Assembly (NCBI GenBank): GCA_009781005.1
Contig: WQYX01000001.1
Span: forward strand, 62,001 to 126,000
DNA length: 64,000 bases
DNA from: Polyangiaceae bacterium
Lineage (GTDB): Bacteria; Myxococcota_A; Polyangia; Polyangiales; Polyangiaceae
Reading direction: 5' to 3'
Both the position numbers and the translations under genes were made by a program. Shown piece after piece: positions 18,329 through 57,764 of the stretch. Below the pieces are notes generated by a model. That model did no database searches. It saw nothing but the letters and a program-made list of their open reading frames with translations, and had not been told where the DNA came from. Position 1 is the first letter of the stretch. Each line of letters starts with the position of its first letter.

Positions 18329-18359
18329 AAAAGTCGCCGGGGGATCTCCCAACGGATTA

Positions 18360-18391
18360 GCGCTACTGCCGGAAGTATTCCGGCAGTAGCG
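18360..18391. terminator. Short hairpin E1 (family E)
   Basis: CGCTACTGCCGGAA, loop GTA, TTCCGGCAGTAGCG: a perfect 14-base stem. It lies between the converging ends of the FHA gene and the first cysteine-rich lipoprotein gene and could end transcription from both sides. Similar hairpins are at 20739 and 56001, and a half copy near 56169. Confidence 0.7.
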
Positions 18392-18396
18392 TTAGG

Positions 18397-20624: not shown

Positions 20625-20738
20625 GGCTTTACCTTACCTTGAAAGAATTTGAGATTGAGATTCAATAACTTCTTAACAAGTTATAAGGGCACTGCCGAAG
20701 ACGCCAAAAACGACGTGAAGCCGTGGCGGATTGGGCTA

Positions 20739-20771
20739 GCGCTACTGCCGGAATGCTTCCAGCAGTAGTGC
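20739..20771. terminator. Short hairpin E2 (family E)
   Basis: GCGCTACTGCCGGAA, loop TGC, TTCCAGCAGTAGTGC. The two mismatches against a perfect copy are both G-T (wobble) pairs when read as RNA. It starts three bases past the stop of the TPR gene, on the same strand as it. Confidence 0.65.
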
Positions 20772-20774
20772 TCA

Positions 20775-21635
20775 TCAGAACGCGCCGCCGAGGGAGAGAC
20801 CCGCGAAGCCTGGTCCCACGGTTGGCGTGACGGTTGGCTTCTTCGCGCTGCGCGATTCTATGGATCCGGTGGGTTCCAGGAAATGCCAGATGAGACCGCC
20901 CACGGCGACGGCTGCACCGGCGCCCATGAGAACGATGCCCGTAGTGCCCTGGGTTCTTGACTTGCCTGCTCGGTCCCTGTCGGCCTGGAGATCTGCGTCG
21001 GATTCACCGACCCCCTTGACACAGGTACCCGAACCTGACTCGCAGTTCGAGGGCATGCTGGGTTTCGTCACCAAGATCACCGCACCGGTGATCACTGCGG
21101 CTCCGCCGACGCCAACGACAACCCATGGCAAAATCGTGTGCGAGCGCTCCGGGGCGGGCCGCTGCTGTTCCACCACGGGTTCTTTCGCCTTCGACTCGGC
21201 GGCGATACGCTTTTGAATGTTCTCCATGCGAGCGCGGAGCGAGGCGTCCGCGTTGCTGGCCGGCACGCGATCAAAGTACGCCTGGAGCGCGTTCAGCGCC
21301 TCCTGCAGGTCGCCCTTCGATTCGTACGCGCGCGAGATGTTGATGAGCAACTCGGGCTTCGTGCAGTCGCGCCGATATGCTTCACGATACTGGGCGATGG
21401 CGGCATCCCAGTTGCTGTTGTCGTACGCACTGCGCCCAGCAAGGTAGGCGTCATGTGCGGCGTTGCTTTCTTCGGGCGAGATCGCCCGCCCCGTGCAGGA
21501 CGGATACGGCGGAGCGCCCGCCGTGGCCGTCGCTGTCGCCGGAGCACCCGCCGCAGTCGACTGAGCGTACGCGGGTGTGGAGAAAGCGGTGAACAAGAGA
21601 AGACCAAAACCAAGAGCAGACGTACTTGTGCGCAT
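20775..21635 (-). CDS. Exported TPR protein with two membrane segments
   Basis: The product has 286 residues. A signal peptide (cleavage near AYA-QS) is followed by TPR-like helices (residues about 55-150, AAHDAYLAGRSAYDNSNWDAA). Two hydrophobic segments (ILPWVVVGVGGAAVITGAVI and TGIVLMGAGAAVAVGGLIW) flank a loop with two Cys. The plan is the same as the TPR protein at 62208-63242 and is common in Myxococcota, where its function is unknown; it is probably a cell-envelope scaffold. Confidence 0.75.
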   Translation of the reverse strand: MRTSTSALGFGLLLFTAFSTPAYAQSTAAGAPATATATAGAPPYPSCTGRAISPEESNAAHDAYLAGRSAYDNSNWDAAIAQYREAYRRDCTKPELLINISRAYESKGDLQEALNALQAYFDRVPASNADASLRARMENIQKRIAAESKAKEPVVEQQRPAPERSHTILPWVVVGVGGAAVITGAVILVTKPSMPSNCESGSGTCVKGVGESDADLQADRDRAGKSRTQGTTGIVLMGAGAAVAVGGLIWHFLEPTGSIESRSAKKPTVTPTVGPGFAGLSLGGAF

Positions 21636-22480: not shown

Positions 22481-23056
22481 ATGACCGACGTACTCTCGAA
22501 GCCGGTACTCGTTCTCAATCGCATCTTTCAGCCGGTGCAGCTAACGACGGTAAAACGCGCTTTCATTCTCCTTTACGGTGGCGCCGCCTACGCCGTCGAC
22601 GAAGATGGAGAAGAGTACGATTTCGAGCTGTGGCGGAGGCTGCCGGTGCGTCACACGGACGACGCGTTACCCATTGTTGGCAACGCGCTTCGCGTGCCTC
22701 GCGTCCTGCACTTGCACCGCTATGATCGCGCGCCGAAAATTACCGTTCGACTCACGCGTCGCAACTTGATGCTTCGTGACGGCCATCAGTGCCAGTACTG
22801 CGGCAAGCAGCCCCCGCTTCGCGATCTCAACATCGACCACGTGCTTCCGCGATCGCGGGGTGGTGCCGACTCATGGGAAAATCTCGTGACCGCATGTCGC
22901 TACTGCAACCTCCGCAAAGGCTGGCGGACGCCCGAGGAAGCGAACATGCGTCTCGCACGAAAACCCTCCCGGCCGAAGTGGTCGATGACCGCACAACTCC
23001 TGCATGCCGCGGCAACGAAGTACCGTGAGTGGGAGCCCTTTTTAAAGGCGAGCTAG
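22481..23056 (+). CDS. HNH endonuclease family protein
   Basis: The product has 191 residues. The C-terminal half is an HNH domain with a zinc site: CQYC (104-107), the catalytic region NIDHVLPRSRGG (His120), Asn134 in ENLVTAC, and CRYC (139-142). The N-terminal part VLVLNRIFQPVQLTTVKRAF is typical of the stand-alone HNH proteins found across many bacterial chromosomes, whose biological role is not settled. The stop codon TAG lies inside the terminal repeat of palindromic element B1. Confidence 0.87.
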   Translation: MTDVLSKPVLVLNRIFQPVQLTTVKRAFILLYGGAAYAVDEDGEEYDFELWRRLPVRHTDDALPIVGNALRVPRVLHLHRYDRAPKITVRLTRRNLMLRDGHQCQYCGKQPPLRDLNIDHVLPRSRGGADSWENLVTACRYCNLRKGWRTPEEANMRLARKPSRPKWSMTAQLLHAAATKYREWEPFLKAS

Positions 23057-23239
23057 CCCGGATCATTCATGACGCGATTGCGGTAGAAGGCCGAGACCGC
23101 AGCGAAAAGGGCGCACGCCGTATCGCAGAACCGAGGCGTACTGTACGTACGCCGCAGGTCCGAGGAGCGCCGTACGCCCTTTGCAGCAAAGGGATCGGCT
23201 CTTCTAAGCGGAGTCGTCATGAATGATCCGGGCTAGCTC
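23050..23239. repeat. Palindromic element B1 (family B)
   Basis: About 190 bp bounded by GAGCTAGCCCGGATCATTC and its exact reverse complement. The centre holds GGCGTACTGTACGTACGCC. On the + strand one frame is open through most of it and encodes peptides very like those of copy B2 (34294-34473). It supplies the stop codon of the HNH gene. Confidence 0.92.
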
Positions 23240-23557: not shown

Positions 23558-23905
23558 TCAGAACTCGGCGCGGCCCGCGTCTTTGCCAGCGTCCTTGTCA
23601 GCAAGCTCGGTGTAACCGGCGTCCTTGCCGGCATCCTTGTCAGCGAGCTCCGTGTAACCCGCATCTTTGCCGGCGTCCTTGTCAGCGAGCTCGGTGTAAC
23701 CGGCATCTTTGCCAGCGTCCTTGTCAGCGAGCTCCGTGTAGCCCGCATCGTCGCCGCACAAAACGATGTTCCCGCCGCTGTCTTGCCCGCCGTCCTTGGC
23801 ATCGTTGGCGCCCAGCGTTGCGGACGGCATGGCCGAGCCCACCGTTGCGACCGTTGCAGCCGCTGCAACACCGACGAACATCATCATAGCCTTCATACGC
23901 TTCAT
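23558..23905 (-). CDS. Small exported protein with four 14-residue repeats
   Basis: The product has 115 residues. A signal-like hydrophobic start (MKAMMMFVGVAAAATVATV) is followed by an acidic region made of four copies of GYTELADKDAGKDA. The ATG at 23905 has GGAGG eight bases upstream. The repeats give a low-complexity Asp/Lys/Ala protein of a kind common as a surface or periplasmic spacer in myxobacteria. I recognise no function. An 11-base perfect hairpin lies just upstream in the leader. Confidence 0.6.
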   Translation of the reverse strand: MKRMKAMMMFVGVAAAATVATVGSAMPSATLGANDAKDGGQDSGGNIVLCGDDAGYTELADKDAGKDAGYTELADKDAGKDAGYTELADKDAGKDAGYTELADKDAGKDAGRAEF

Positions 23906-29866: not shown

Positions 29867-29986
29867 ACCGCTTTCAAGTTGACGCGAGGTCAAGGCGGGG
29901 CCGAGGAGCGGACCGGAACAGCCTTGAAGGCTTTGAGGACCGCACCGCAGGCCCCAACGATGAGATCGCGGCAAATCGAAAGCGGT
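29867..29986. repeat. Palindromic element D2 (family D)
   Basis: 120 bp bounded by ACCGCTTTCAAGTTGACGCG and, on the other strand, ACCGCTTTCGATTTGCCGCG. The centre is AGCCTTGAAGGCT. It ends five bases before the 5' end of tRNA-Ser and is the only copy that lies at the 5' side of a gene. Confidence 0.92.
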
Positions 29987-32968: not shown

Positions 32969-33853
32969 TCAGCTCGCGACGCCCTTCTTCTTGGTTTTCT
33001 CGCTTTCTGCGCGCGGTTCGGCTTTCTTCGGTCCTTTCTTGATGACGAGCGGCGGCTCTGACGGGGCGGTTTCGGACTTGCCCTCCGTATGCGCAACGCT
33101 CCGCTTGAGTGCCTCGAGTAAATCGATGATTTTTGTCTTCGGGACTTCGGGCGCCGTCGTCACTTCCTGCCCGGCGATCTTCTCATCGACGGTCTGCCGA
33201 ACCTTGTCCGCCCACGTGTCGCGAAACTGGGATGGATCGAACGTATCGCGATCGAGTTGTCGAATGAGTTTGTCGGCGAGTTCGAGTTCGATGGGCTTGA
33301 ATTCGAATGTGCCGCCTGTTTCGATTTCATCGAACGAACGAACTTCGTCCGCGTAAAAGCACTCGTGCAAAATGAGGCCTTTCTTGTATGGCCGCACGAG
33401 AACGAGATTGTCTTTGCCCCTCTGCGCGAAGCGACCAACGGCGAGCCGTCCGGCGCTCTCGAGAGATTCTGCGAGTAGGCGATAAGCGCGCTCTGCGCCC
33501 TTGTCGGGTCCGAGGAAATACGTCTTCTCGATGTAGAGGAAGTCCACGGTGCTTGCCGGCACGAATTGGGCGAGTTCGAGGATGCCGCTGCGTGCAGCCT
33601 CCATGGCTTTCAATTCTTCGTCCGTGAACTTTACGTACTGATCGCGCGCATACTCGAAGCCGCGCACGGTGTCTGCGCGCTCGACCACCACGTTCTCGGC
33701 GGGGCAGACCATCTGCTGTTTGAGCCGGCCGCCGCACGTGTGATGCAACAAATTGAAACTCACCGACTTTGGGGACGTCGCCGTAAAGAGCTTGAACGGA
33801 ATGGAGACGAGGCCGAACGAGATGGTTCCGGACCCGATGGATCGCGCTGCCAT
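32969..33853 (-). CDS. ku: Ku protein (non-homologous end joining)
   Basis: The product has 294 residues. The N-terminus AARSIGSGTISFGLVSIPFKL and later motifs (FVPASTVDFLYIEKTYFLGPDKG, quoted in part as FLYIEKTYFLGPDKG) are diagnostic of bacterial Ku. It forms a homodimer that encircles DNA ends and recruits a ligase. The C-terminal tail is Lys-rich (KKGPKKAEPRAESEKTKKKG), typical of Ku proteins with an extended DNA-binding tail. No LigD is in the window. Confidence 0.96.
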   Translation of the reverse strand: MAARSIGSGTISFGLVSIPFKLFTATSPKSVSFNLLHHTCGGRLKQQMVCPAENVVVERADTVRGFEYARDQYVKFTDEELKAMEAARSGILELAQFVPASTVDFLYIEKTYFLGPDKGAERAYRLLAESLESAGRLAVGRFAQRGKDNLVLVRPYKKGLILHECFYADEVRSFDEIETGGTFEFKPIELELADKLIRQLDRDTFDPSQFRDTWADKVRQTVDEKIAGQEVTTAPEVPKTKIIDLLEALKRSVAHTEGKSETAPSEPPLVIKKGPKKAEPRAESEKTKKKGVAS

Positions 33854-33920: not shown

Positions 33921-34631
33921 TCAAGGTGTGGCAGTCGAACAAACCTTGGACAGTAGAGGCGAGAGGATTTGCGTATCGAAGACGAGATACGCGCGCCAAT
34001 GGAGCACGATCGCCGTCAGGAGAAGGACGACGAGCGCAATCGCCAACGCGGCGAGAGAGCGGCGACGAGATGTCTGCGCATGCGCGGCGACGGGCGCCAC
34101 GTGAGTCCACGGTCGTGGCGGCAGAACTTCGGGCGGCGGCACGAAGATCCGAGGTTGCGAATCGAGCGGTGCGGCACATGCGCGAAGTGCCGCAGCAAGC
34201 CGCTCACGATCTATCGCGCTCGTTGGCAGATCGTGTGGCTCCAAGCAATGCGTCGTTGGCGCCTCCGAAGGCATTGGGACATCGGAATCATCTAGCTCGG
34301 AGAATTCATGACGACTCCGCGTAGAAGAGCCGATCCCTTTGCTGCAAAGGACGTACGGCGTTTCTCGGCCCTGCGGCGTACGTACAGTACGCCTCGGTCC
34401 TGCGATACGGCGTGCGCCCTTTTCGCTGCGGTTTCGGCCTTCTATCGCAATCGCGTCATGAATTCTCTGAGCTAGGGCGGGTTGCGTTACTTCTTCGGGT
34501 GAGATCACGGTGATCTCATCGTCGTACCTATCGATCGCGATCCTCTTCGCTTCGATGGCACGGTTGCGCGTGCGTCCTCGTTCTTCAAGCCTTCGGGTGA
34601 GCCAGGCGGGCAGGGGCGGAATGGGTTCCAT
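33921..34631 (-). CDS. Uncharacterised membrane protein carrying an in-frame palindromic element
   Basis: The product has 236 residues. The N-terminal 50 residues are charged (PAWLTRRLEERGRTRNRAIE), the middle holds a Pro-rich stretch, and one membrane segment lies near the C-terminus (LAALAIALVVLLLTAIVLHW). Residues about 53-112 are encoded entirely by palindromic element B2, whose 180 bp keep the frame. Without it, the flanking parts would still form a protein of about 176 residues. I recognise no family. It lies 67 bases before Ku on the same strand and may be co-transcribed with it. Confidence 0.55.
   Translation of the reverse strand: MEPIPPLPAWLTRRLEERGRTRNRAIEAKRIAIDRYDDEITVISPEEVTQPALAQRIHDAIAIEGRNRSEKGARRIAGPRRTVRTPQGRETPYVLCSKGIGSSTRSRHEFSELDDSDVPMPSEAPTTHCLEPHDLPTSAIDRERLAAALRACAAPLDSQPRIFVPPPEVLPPRPWTHVAPVAAHAQTSRRRSLAALAIALVVLLLTAIVLHWRAYLVFDTQILSPLLSKVCSTATP
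34294..34473. repeat. Palindromic element B2 (family B), inside a gene
   Basis: 180 bp, exactly 60 codons. The ends are AGCTCGGAGAATTCATGACG and, on the other strand, AGCTCAGAGAATTCATGACG. The centre is GGCGTACGTACAGTACGCC. Read on the - strand it encodes RSEKGARRIAGPRRTVRTPQ in the same frame as the gene, where B1 (23050-23239, + strand) encodes RSEKGARRIAEPRRTVRTPQ. The end sequences differ between B1 and B2, but each copy stays self-complementary. Confidence 0.92.
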
Positions 34632-34702
34632 GGTGGTTTTTCACCCTTCGGCCGCGAACAGAGAAAGATGCTTCTTTTGACTGCACGCTATGCTCGCTGG
34701 CC

Positions 34703-35350
34703 ATGGCAACCATCGGACTCATCGGAGCAGGACACATCGGCAGCCAACTCGCGCGTCTCGCGGTCAAGAGCGGCTACGACGTCGTGATCAGCAACTCGCG
34801 TGGCCCCGAGACGTTGCAAGATCTCGTCAAGGAGCTCGGCTCGAAGGCGCGTGCCGCAACGTCCGTCGAAACCGCGAAAGCTGGCGACTTCGTGGTCGTC
34901 ACCATCCCGCTGAAGAACTACCGCGACGTGCCTGTTGCGCCTCTCGCGGGCAAGCTCGTGATCGACACGAACAACTACTACCCGCAGCGCGATGGACATA
35001 TTCGCGCCCTCGATGACGAGACCACGACGACCGCGGAGCTCCTGCAGGCGCACCTGCCGACGTCGAAGGTCGTCAAAGCGTTCAACCATATTTACGCCGC
35101 CGATCTCACGACGCACGGTCAACCTGCGGGCTCGAAGAATCGCCGCGCGCTCGCCATCGCGGGGAACGACGCGGACGCGAAAGCCAAGGTGACGCACCTC
35201 ATGGATCAATTCGGTTTCGACACCGTCGACATGGGGCCACTCGAGGAAGGTTGGCGCATCCAGCGCGACACACCGGGCTACGGTCCGCGCCGGAACGCGT
35301 CCGAGCTTCGCGCCAATCTCGCAGCGGCCAAGCGCTATCGAGACATGTAA
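34703..35350 (+). CDS. NADP-dependent oxidoreductase of the F420/YrpG-like Rossmann family
   Basis: The product has 215 residues. The N-terminal GLIGAGHIGSQLARLAVKSG is a Rossmann GxGxxG motif, and ISNSRGPE after the second strand fits NADP(H) binding. The C-terminal part (VVKAFNHIYAADL, ALAIAGNDADAKAKV) matches the NADPH:F420 oxidoreductase-like family. In organisms without F420 such proteins often act on other substrates; no F420 biosynthesis gene is seen here. Single gene, divergent from the membrane protein and converging on the lyase. Confidence 0.82.
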   Translation: MATIGLIGAGHIGSQLARLAVKSGYDVVISNSRGPETLQDLVKELGSKARAATSVETAKAGDFVVVTIPLKNYRDVPVAPLAGKLVIDTNNYYPQRDGHIRALDDETTTTAELLQAHLPTSKVVKAFNHIYAADLTTHGQPAGSKNRRALAIAGNDADAKAKVTHLMDQFGFDTVDMGPLEEGWRIQRDTPGYGPRRNASELRANLAAAKRYRDM

Positions 35351-50753: not shown

Positions 50754-51995
50754 TCACCGGCACCTTGCAAGGACCGACGCCGACATCTCGTGACACACGA
50801 AGCAAGGCCGCGGGTTACGTCGCATCTGCGTCGCGCAATGGCTCGCGAAGTTCCCCAGGTGCGGATTGTAGCCGCCGCCGATCCCCTGGCCGCCGTGACA
50901 CGCGACGCAGTCACGTTCGATGTGGCAGCTCACGCACGCGTTGAGATTGCGCATGGCCTCGAACGAGTGATGTCCCGGTCTGCGCGGTGGATCACTCCAC
51001 ACCGATTTTGGCGGATGGAAACGACCTGGCTCGCGCACGCCGCTCGGGCCGCTCATCGACACGCCGAGCCGCTGGTGACACGGCAGGCAGAAGCTTTGCT
51101 CGCGGTGGCAGCTCGTGCACTTCTGCGTCGCGAGCCGCGCTTCGACCGGATGCATCGCGAGGTAGTCGCTCGGGTGGATGTTGCGCGGGCGCACGCGCCC
51201 GTCATGGCACCCTGCGCAGTACTCTTCTTTGTGGCAGTTCGCGCAGAACTCGGAGTCGTTGGCCGCAACCTGCTTGTGCCGCTGAAGAAAGTCCGGCGTG
51301 TGCTCCGCGTCGTGCAGACCTCGCTCCGGAAGGAGCACGCCGCTCGGAAAGACCGTGCGGAGGCGGCCGCCTTCGTTGGTGCCTCCCTTGATGTGGCACG
51401 TCTCGCACGCGCCCTTGGCATCACCGCTGGCGGGTGACTCCGGCTGCTGGTGACATCGCAGGCACGCGCGCATGCGAGGAAGATCGTCGCGCGTCGCAAG
51501 CTCGCTCTCCTGGACGTCGCCATGACACTGCGCGCAGCCAATGTTGCGTGCTCCGTGCTTTGCGTGGCTGAAGATCACGTTCGGCCGCGGTATTTCCAGT
51601 TTCGCGACCCGGTTGCCGTCGCCCTCTCGATATCCAACGTGGCAATGGTTGCACTTTCCCATCTTCTCGTCGTCGCCGGGCTGGACGTGATGGAGATCGA
51701 GATGGTTGGTGCCATGGCATGAATCACACGTCGTGCCTTGCGGCGTGAGGATCTCGCCGGAGGTTTGACTCGTGAGCGCATTTGGATGGCACGTCTTGCA
51801 TTCGAGCTTTTGGTCTTTGACGTGGGACTTGTGGTTGAAGCGGATCGTGATGTTTTGCGGCGGGAAGATGGCTTTGCTCGGGCCGCCGTTGTCGGCGTCG
51901 GATCTTGCGAACGCTGGCGCCTGTACGAACGCAAGGAGCGCCGCGACCACGAGGACACCAAGCAAGAACCAAAAAGCTGGCGCCAACGGTGGCAC
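50754..51995 (-). CDS. Thirteen-haem c-type cytochrome
   Basis: I count thirteen CxxCH motifs (CKTCH, CDSCH, CNHCH, CAQCH, CLRCH, CETCH, CANCH, CAGCH, CTSCH, CLPCH, CVSCH, CVACH, CFVCH) in about 410 residues, with many extra His for axial ligands. A hydrophobic N-terminal segment (FWFLLGVLVVAALLAFVQA) exports it. It probably carries electrons in the periplasm or through the outer membrane. The start is ambiguous: GTG at 51995 opens at the signal segment, while ATG at 52115 would add 40 residues encoded entirely by palindromic element D4. Most likely the GTG or a nearby TTG is used. Confidence 0.85.
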   Translation of the reverse strand: MPPLAPAFWFLLGVLVVAALLAFVQAPAFARSDADNGGPSKAIFPPQNITIRFNHKSHVKDQKLECKTCHPNALTSQTSGEILTPQGTTCDSCHGTNHLDLHHVQPGDDEKMGKCNHCHVGYREGDGNRVAKLEIPRPNVIFSHAKHGARNIGCAQCHGDVQESELATRDDLPRMRACLRCHQQPESPASGDAKGACETCHIKGGTNEGGRLRTVFPSGVLLPERGLHDAEHTPDFLQRHKQVAANDSEFCANCHKEEYCAGCHDGRVRPRNIHPSDYLAMHPVEARLATQKCTSCHREQSFCLPCHQRLGVSMSGPSGVREPGRFHPPKSVWSDPPRRPGHHSFEAMRNLNACVSCHIERDCVACHGGQGIGGGYNPHLGNFASHCATQMRRNPRPCFVCHEMSASVLARCR

Positions 51996-52112
51996 CGCAA
52001 ACGATTTGGTGCGAGGTCGAGGCGGGGCCGAGCAGCGGACCGGAACAGCCTTTTGGCTTTGAGGACCGCAGCGCAGGCACCAACGAAGAGATCGCGCCAA
52101 AGCGGAAGCGGT
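51994..52112. repeat. Palindromic element D4 (family D), at a gene junction
   Basis: 119 bp bounded by ACCGCAAACGATTTGGTGCG and, on the other strand, ACCGCTTCCGCTTTGGCGCG. The centre is AGCCTTTTGGCT. It fills the whole junction between the outer-membrane barrel gene (whose stop codon contains its first base, read on the - strand) and the cytochrome gene. Confidence 0.92.
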
Positions 52113-57531: not shown

Positions 57532-57613
57532 GCACGGGTGGCGAAACTGGCAGACGCAGCGGATTTAGGTTCCGCCGCCGCAAGGCATGAGGGTTCAATT
57601 CCCTCCCCGTGCA
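57532..57613 (+). tRNA. tRNA-Leu(UAG)
   Basis: 82 bases. The acceptor stem is GCACGGG with CCCGTGC, discriminator A, and no encoded CCA. The anticodon loop TTTAGGT on a GCGGA/TCCGC stem gives TAG. A class II variable arm (CGCCGCAAGGCAT region) and the T-arm GAGGG-TTCAATT-CCCTC are present. Palindromic element A3 begins five bases after its 3' end. Confidence 0.96.
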
Positions 57614-57618
57614 CTCTA

Positions 57619-57764
57619 AGAGCGAGTTCGACAGCCGTCGCGAGCGAATCGAGGTTAGGGCAGAGCGCGAGGAGCCCACGAAAGCGTACTTATCGTACGT
57701 GCGCAGGCACCGCAGCGCCCAACCGACGAATCGATTTCGCGCAGCAGGCTGCCCTACACGCTCT
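57619..57764. repeat. Palindromic element A3 (family A)
   Basis: 146 bp bounded by AGAGCGAGTTCGACAGCC and, on the other strand, AGAGCGTGTAGGGCAGCC. The centre is GTACTTATCGTAC. It begins five bases past the 3' end of tRNA-Leu. Confidence 0.9.

Follow-up and report, generated by a model that had tools for sequence, protein, structure and literature searches.

The window analysed here, a 64-kb stretch of DNA from a Polyangiaceae bacterium, carries two inverted copies (B1 and B2) of a quasi-palindromic repeat, and B2 lies within an open reading frame that runs through it uninterrupted. The question raised by this locus is whether B2 is a mobile element able to enter protein genes in frame. Our main reading, to which we give a probability of roughly 0.8, is that B2 belongs to a family of non-autonomous DNA transposons (MITE) whose insertion is frame-neutral and tolerated in proteins.

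A high-copy repeat with the structure of a MITE

Searching the 4.77-Mb source genome with the core pattern of the element gave 102 matches, in comparison with none for the reversed control pattern. This confirms the repeat reported by the first-pass annotation and shows it to be a family of around 100 copies, far above chance. We defined the ends of the element by aligning 36 full copies, which gave a core of 178 bp for B2, flanked on each side by a TA inside CTAG (Table 1). TA flanks were present on both sides in 23 of the 36 full copies and on one side in 9 more, with the extended CTA..TAG context in 20 of them. CTAG itself occurs 21 times in the window, against the 223 occurrences expected from base composition. 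The core has terminal inverted repeats at each end (GCCCGGATnATTCATGACG...), which lie within a near full-length hairpin. Together with the short target-site duplication (TA), the high copy number and a length insufficient for a transposase gene, these are the features of a MITE, and it is because of the TA/CTAG target duplication that we consider the element a MITE in structure. Adding one TA to the core gives 180 bp, so the insertion is frame-neutral and contributes exactly 60 codons, as had been noted from the sequence. An Rfam search of the window returned only tRNAs.

Table 1. Coordinates of B2, B1 and neighbouring features in the window
Feature	Position	Strand	Basis
B2 element core, 178 bp, quasi-palindrome	34295..34472	- (stop-free frame)	36-copy alignment, RNA fold, translation
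B2 TA target duplication, left, in CTAG 34292-34295	34293..34294	.	sequence; 36-copy flank count
B2 TA target duplication, right, in CTAG 34472-34475	34473..34474	.	sequence; 36-copy flank count
B2 terminal inverted repeat, left arm = outer hairpin stem	34295..34313	+	alignment, fold, covariation
B2 terminal inverted repeat, right arm = outer hairpin stem	34454..34472	-	alignment, fold, covariation
Putative orphan host gene (236 aa including the insert, 176 aa excluding it), C-terminal hydrophobic segment	33921..34631	-	ORF; codon scores
Host N-terminal part, 52 codons	34476..34631	-	host frame best of six, 0.133 per codon
Host C-terminal part, 124 codons + stop	33921..34295	-	host frame best of six, weak, 0.057 per codon
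Candidate ribosome-binding site GAAGGG upstream of host ATG	34644..34649	-	sequence inspection; inference
Ku DNA-binding protein gene, next downstream of host ORF	32969..33853	-	PF02735, E 6.4e-42
NADP oxidoreductase (F420-dependent type) gene, divergent neighbour	34703..35350	+	PF03807
B1 element core, orientation opposite to B2; plus frame broken by TGA	23056..23233	+	alignment, translation
B1 left TA; TAG 23054-23056 = HNH gene stop codon	23054..23055	.	sequence
B1 right TA	23234..23235	.	sequence
HNH endonuclease gene, stop codon in B1's target CTAG	22481..23056	+	sequence

The distribution of the element is narrow. Among 57 relatives it was found in only one, a sister genome of the same genus (G009), with a few divergent copies, and a scan of GTDB contigs with the element peptide returned a single contig, from Polyangiaceae bacterium isolate Emb289P4bin44. 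Emb289 refers to the termite Embiratermes neotenicus (PMC7024585), and the source genome belongs to the same genus as a Polyangiaceae bin from termite gut. At 4.8 and 4.2 Mb, respectively, the source genome and G009 are smaller than each of the ten further genus members searched (6.6 to 11.9 Mb).

A candidate mover and route of insertion

We propose that the element would be moved by a transposase of the IS630/Tc1 type, or by another one targeting TA/CTAG. A copy that lands in the right orientation at a site read as CTA-G would add 60 codons with no frameshift, and such an insertion could survive where the protein tolerates an extra segment, as in signal-peptide n-regions, leader peptides or surface loops. 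Proteins would be unchanged by copies that land between genes or on a TAG stop codon. IS630-family elements duplicate TA, and a CTAG preference of IS630 is cited in the same source (PMC2170065). With MITEs of the IS630/Tc1-mariner type the element shares the TA duplication, the CTAG preference, the terminal inverted repeats and the lack of a transposase gene; it differs from them in being palindromic over nearly its whole length and in that we found no partner transposase. No IS630 transposase (PF13358) was detected in the source genome or the sister genome, the PF13358 and PF01609 searches gave no autonomous element with these ends, and no copy of the element's terminal repeat lay beside the transposases that were found. 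Since no partner transposase sharing these ends was recovered, we speak of a likeness to IS630 and do not claim membership.

The open reading frame around B2

The minus strand of B2 encodes LAQRIHDAIAIEGRNRSEKGARRIAGPRRTVRTPQGRETPYVLCSKGIGSSTRSRHEFSE, which forms residues 53-112 of a 236-aa ORF. The first-pass annotation had located B2 inside a gene; the coding of these residues holds, whereas the standing of the ORF as a gene is less firm. We found no Pfam or NCBIfam match for it, and no orthologue in the 57 relatives, in the syntenic loci or in the GTDB contig scan. Its codon bias is low, with 0.133 and 0.057 per codon for the N- and C-terminal parts in comparison with 0.09 to 0.30 in trained genes. 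These results would fit a spurious ORF: B2 would simply lie in the space separating the Ku gene from the divergent oxidoreductase gene, where GC-rich DNA happens to leave a 236-aa frame open. Several other copies, some of them apparently intergenic, are also crossed by ORFs of 214 to 534 codons, and most full copies lack a coding frame on both sides. However, on each flank the host frame scores highest among the six, and the ORF occupies the gap between its neighbours, has a plausible start region and ends in a clear C-terminal hydrophobic segment. We place a chance frame short of even odds. We lean towards the host ORF being a real gene, and likewise towards its product being an orphan protein that evolves fast, is probably anchored in the membrane and tolerates B2 as an insert.

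One could also argue that the two flanks of B2 were wrongly joined during assembly, as a short repeat present at around 100 sites can break or mislead it. The source genome is in 199 contigs, many of which stop within a copy of the element, and no relative has the B2 locus in synteny. Yet the element is just 178 bp long, and the tolB and pseudokinase copies described below are exempt from this objection because both of their flanks match relatives. We regard a misjoin at B2 as improbable.

B1 and copies outside coding sequence

B1 is an inverted copy of B2, 92% complementary to it over 184 nt. An earlier statement that the same frame is open in B1 over 23050-23239 and encodes almost the same peptide proved right for the peptide and wrong for the frame: the plus frame matches the B2 peptide and then reads ...SRHE*SG, with a TGA three codons before the end of the element. 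Nor is B1 inserted within a gene. Its insertion site coincides with the TAG that ends the HNH gene, and because this stop codon lies within the CTAG target, the end of the HNH protein is unchanged by the insertion. Two further copies (L078 and L114) are also on TAG stop codons. Most copies seem to be outside genes, and each of the other copies that we examined closely was either on a TAG stop codon or ahead of the start of a gene. Two copies considered as out-of-frame gene disruptions (L081 and L115) were rejected, since both are upstream of gene starts.

In-frame copies in conserved genes

In the only tolB gene found in the source genome, the element is inserted in frame in the n-region of the signal peptide, between MHAQVTRP and LVVLAGIAALVLTLALPAGAQA, ahead of the hydrophobic core of the signal peptide. 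A TolB match was present in all 28 relatives compared, and the insert was absent in each of the 15 with aligned N-termini. Upstream of tolB the DNA of the sister genome is nearly identical, and its gene shares the ATG but has no insert. In G009 itself, the element lies in the inter-lobe loop of a pseudokinase, with a gap at this position in 9 of 9 aligned homologues, four of them close. A 187-bp copy directly precedes GFTLVEL in a pilin-like gene and is absent in relatives. Finally, a lipoprotein gene at a contig end carries the element in its signal peptide; the adjacent paralogue, 76% identical, reads MIVALRLRPWTSALLVSSLSFSIAAC without it. All four genes read through the element in the same minus frame. 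Judging from these alignments, several proteins, including TolB, appear to carry the element as a foreign stretch.

The TA pair is degraded in the conserved-gene copies (CTA/GAG, TAA/TGG and CAA/TTG), so the duplication is not readable in tolB, the pseudokinase and the pilin-like gene, and these three copies look like old insertions. The in-frame copies do not imply that in-frame insertion is preferred, because the insertions that can be seen are those that were tolerated. As we found no second tolB in the genome, translation of the insert can be tested directly with the tolB copy. The uninterrupted orthologues and the lipoprotein paralogue make it possible to ask whether placement in loops and signal peptides gives tolerance.

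The hairpin and the reading frame

The RNA fold of B2 is a single long hairpin of -105.9 kcal/mol (z -10.7). Across 23 copies, 15 of its pairs were changed on both sides, and the covariation between arms was 0.119, against 0.067 when shuffled and at most 0.045 when slid, exceeding every shuffle and every slid control. The two tips of a given copy were identical in 15 of the 23 copies, compared to a shuffle mean of 4.0.

The minus frame of the element reads CTA GCC CGG ATn ATT CAT GAC ... and is stop-free in many copies: 16 of the 23 that are exactly 178 bp long. Through an idealised CTA-element-TAG context, it is fully open in 16 of the 34 full copies of this genome. Among random 178-mers of the same composition, 59% have an open frame. 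Variants were evenly distributed over the three codon positions (29/29/29), with no excess at third positions, and the nonsynonymous to synonymous ratio was 61:26, against 389:142 opportunities. By these two counts we saw no purifying selection on the element peptide, which appears not to be under selection. Given the proportion of random sequences with an open frame and the even codon positions, we take the open frame as permissive and not as a sign of a functional peptide.

The strength of the fold, the paired changes, the matching tips and the lack of a third-position excess would all suit an element maintained for its hairpin, as RNA or as single-stranded DNA, with coding being incidental. 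But template switching at palindromes, in which one arm is copied from the other, predicts the same covariation, and our controls fit either process. In one copy (L119, 121-298), the left arm complements the right without mismatch over 37 bp, as read from the alignment, which suggests that the left arm was rewritten from the right by template switching. Maintenance through the hairpin is, to our mind, on the unlikely side.

Comparison with known elements

Rickettsia provides the best-known cases of palindromic repeats that invade genes in frame, and the element described here is a high-copy myxobacterial case. Rickettsia palindromic elements (RPE) are around 150 bp long, palindromic and present in many copies, and they insert in frame in unrelated genes with an open frame throughout (PMC10969869). 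Size, palindromy, copy number, open frame and in-frame insertion are common to both. In contrast to RPE, the element has a TA/CTAG target duplication and a Polyangiaceae host, and most of its copies are seemingly outside genes. Its mode of action resembles that of RPE: tolerated, frame-neutral insertion. This likeness had first been drawn from B2; it is upheld instead by the copies in tolB, the pseudokinase, the pilin-like gene and the lipoprotein, where the insert is in frame and missing from relatives or from the paralogue. The similarities in size, palindromy and in-frame insertion (PMC10969869) could be taken to mean that the element is a true member of the RPE families. We consider this extremely improbable: we found no sequence homology to known RPE families, the element peptides had no match in NCBIfam, RPE models included, and among the 57 relatives the element occurs only in G009 besides the source genome.

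ERIC-type repeats are long imperfect palindromes. Some copies of ERIC and similar palindromic intergenic repeats contain an ORF (PMC10969869); they belong to another host group and presumably differ from the element in sequence. QMITE2 of Coxiella burnetii is a MITE of 150-190 bp with around 50 copies, some of them in frame in ORFs (PMC5896051). It shares with the element its MITE nature, a similar length and some in-frame insertions in ORFs, but it has longer direct repeats of variable sequence and is mainly located in 3' untranslated or intergenic regions. In-frame MITE fusions have been described before (PMC10969869, PMC5896051). A literature search on MITEs in myxobacteria gave no description of an element of this kind.

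A broader and more tentative proposal, which we hold to be rather unlikely as a whole, is that an independent lineage of frame-neutral palindromic elements would exist outside Rickettsiales, in smaller-genome Polyangiaceae related to the termite-gut bin. The length, target site and open frame of such elements would suit entry into proteins, to which they would donate a 60-residue segment, above all in signal and leader peptides, and more than one repeat family would be doing so in the same genomes. Whether in-frame invasion accompanies genome shrinkage is a question that can also be asked with this system.

Other repeats

A second repeat family is present in the window at 29867-29986 and 51994-52112. 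A stretch that by eye resembles its translation occurs in dozens of places in G009, and the pseudokinase of that genome also contains it in frame, towards its C-terminus (query residues ~263-311). At another locus (L132, G000:C116, bases 1-1600), the frame of an MFS transporter continues through another repeat and, at the contig start, enters the element, which suggests a compound in-frame insertion.

Within the window we also observed two 121-bp repeats, 90% identical, at 2796-2916 and 57616-57736, the second beginning two bases past a tRNA-Leu gene (57532-57614). A small palindrome (AGCGCTACTGCCGGAA...TTCCGGCAGTAGCG) is present in two inverted copies at 18355-18395 and 20736-20776, and a tandem repeat of around five 42-bp units spans 23561-23770.
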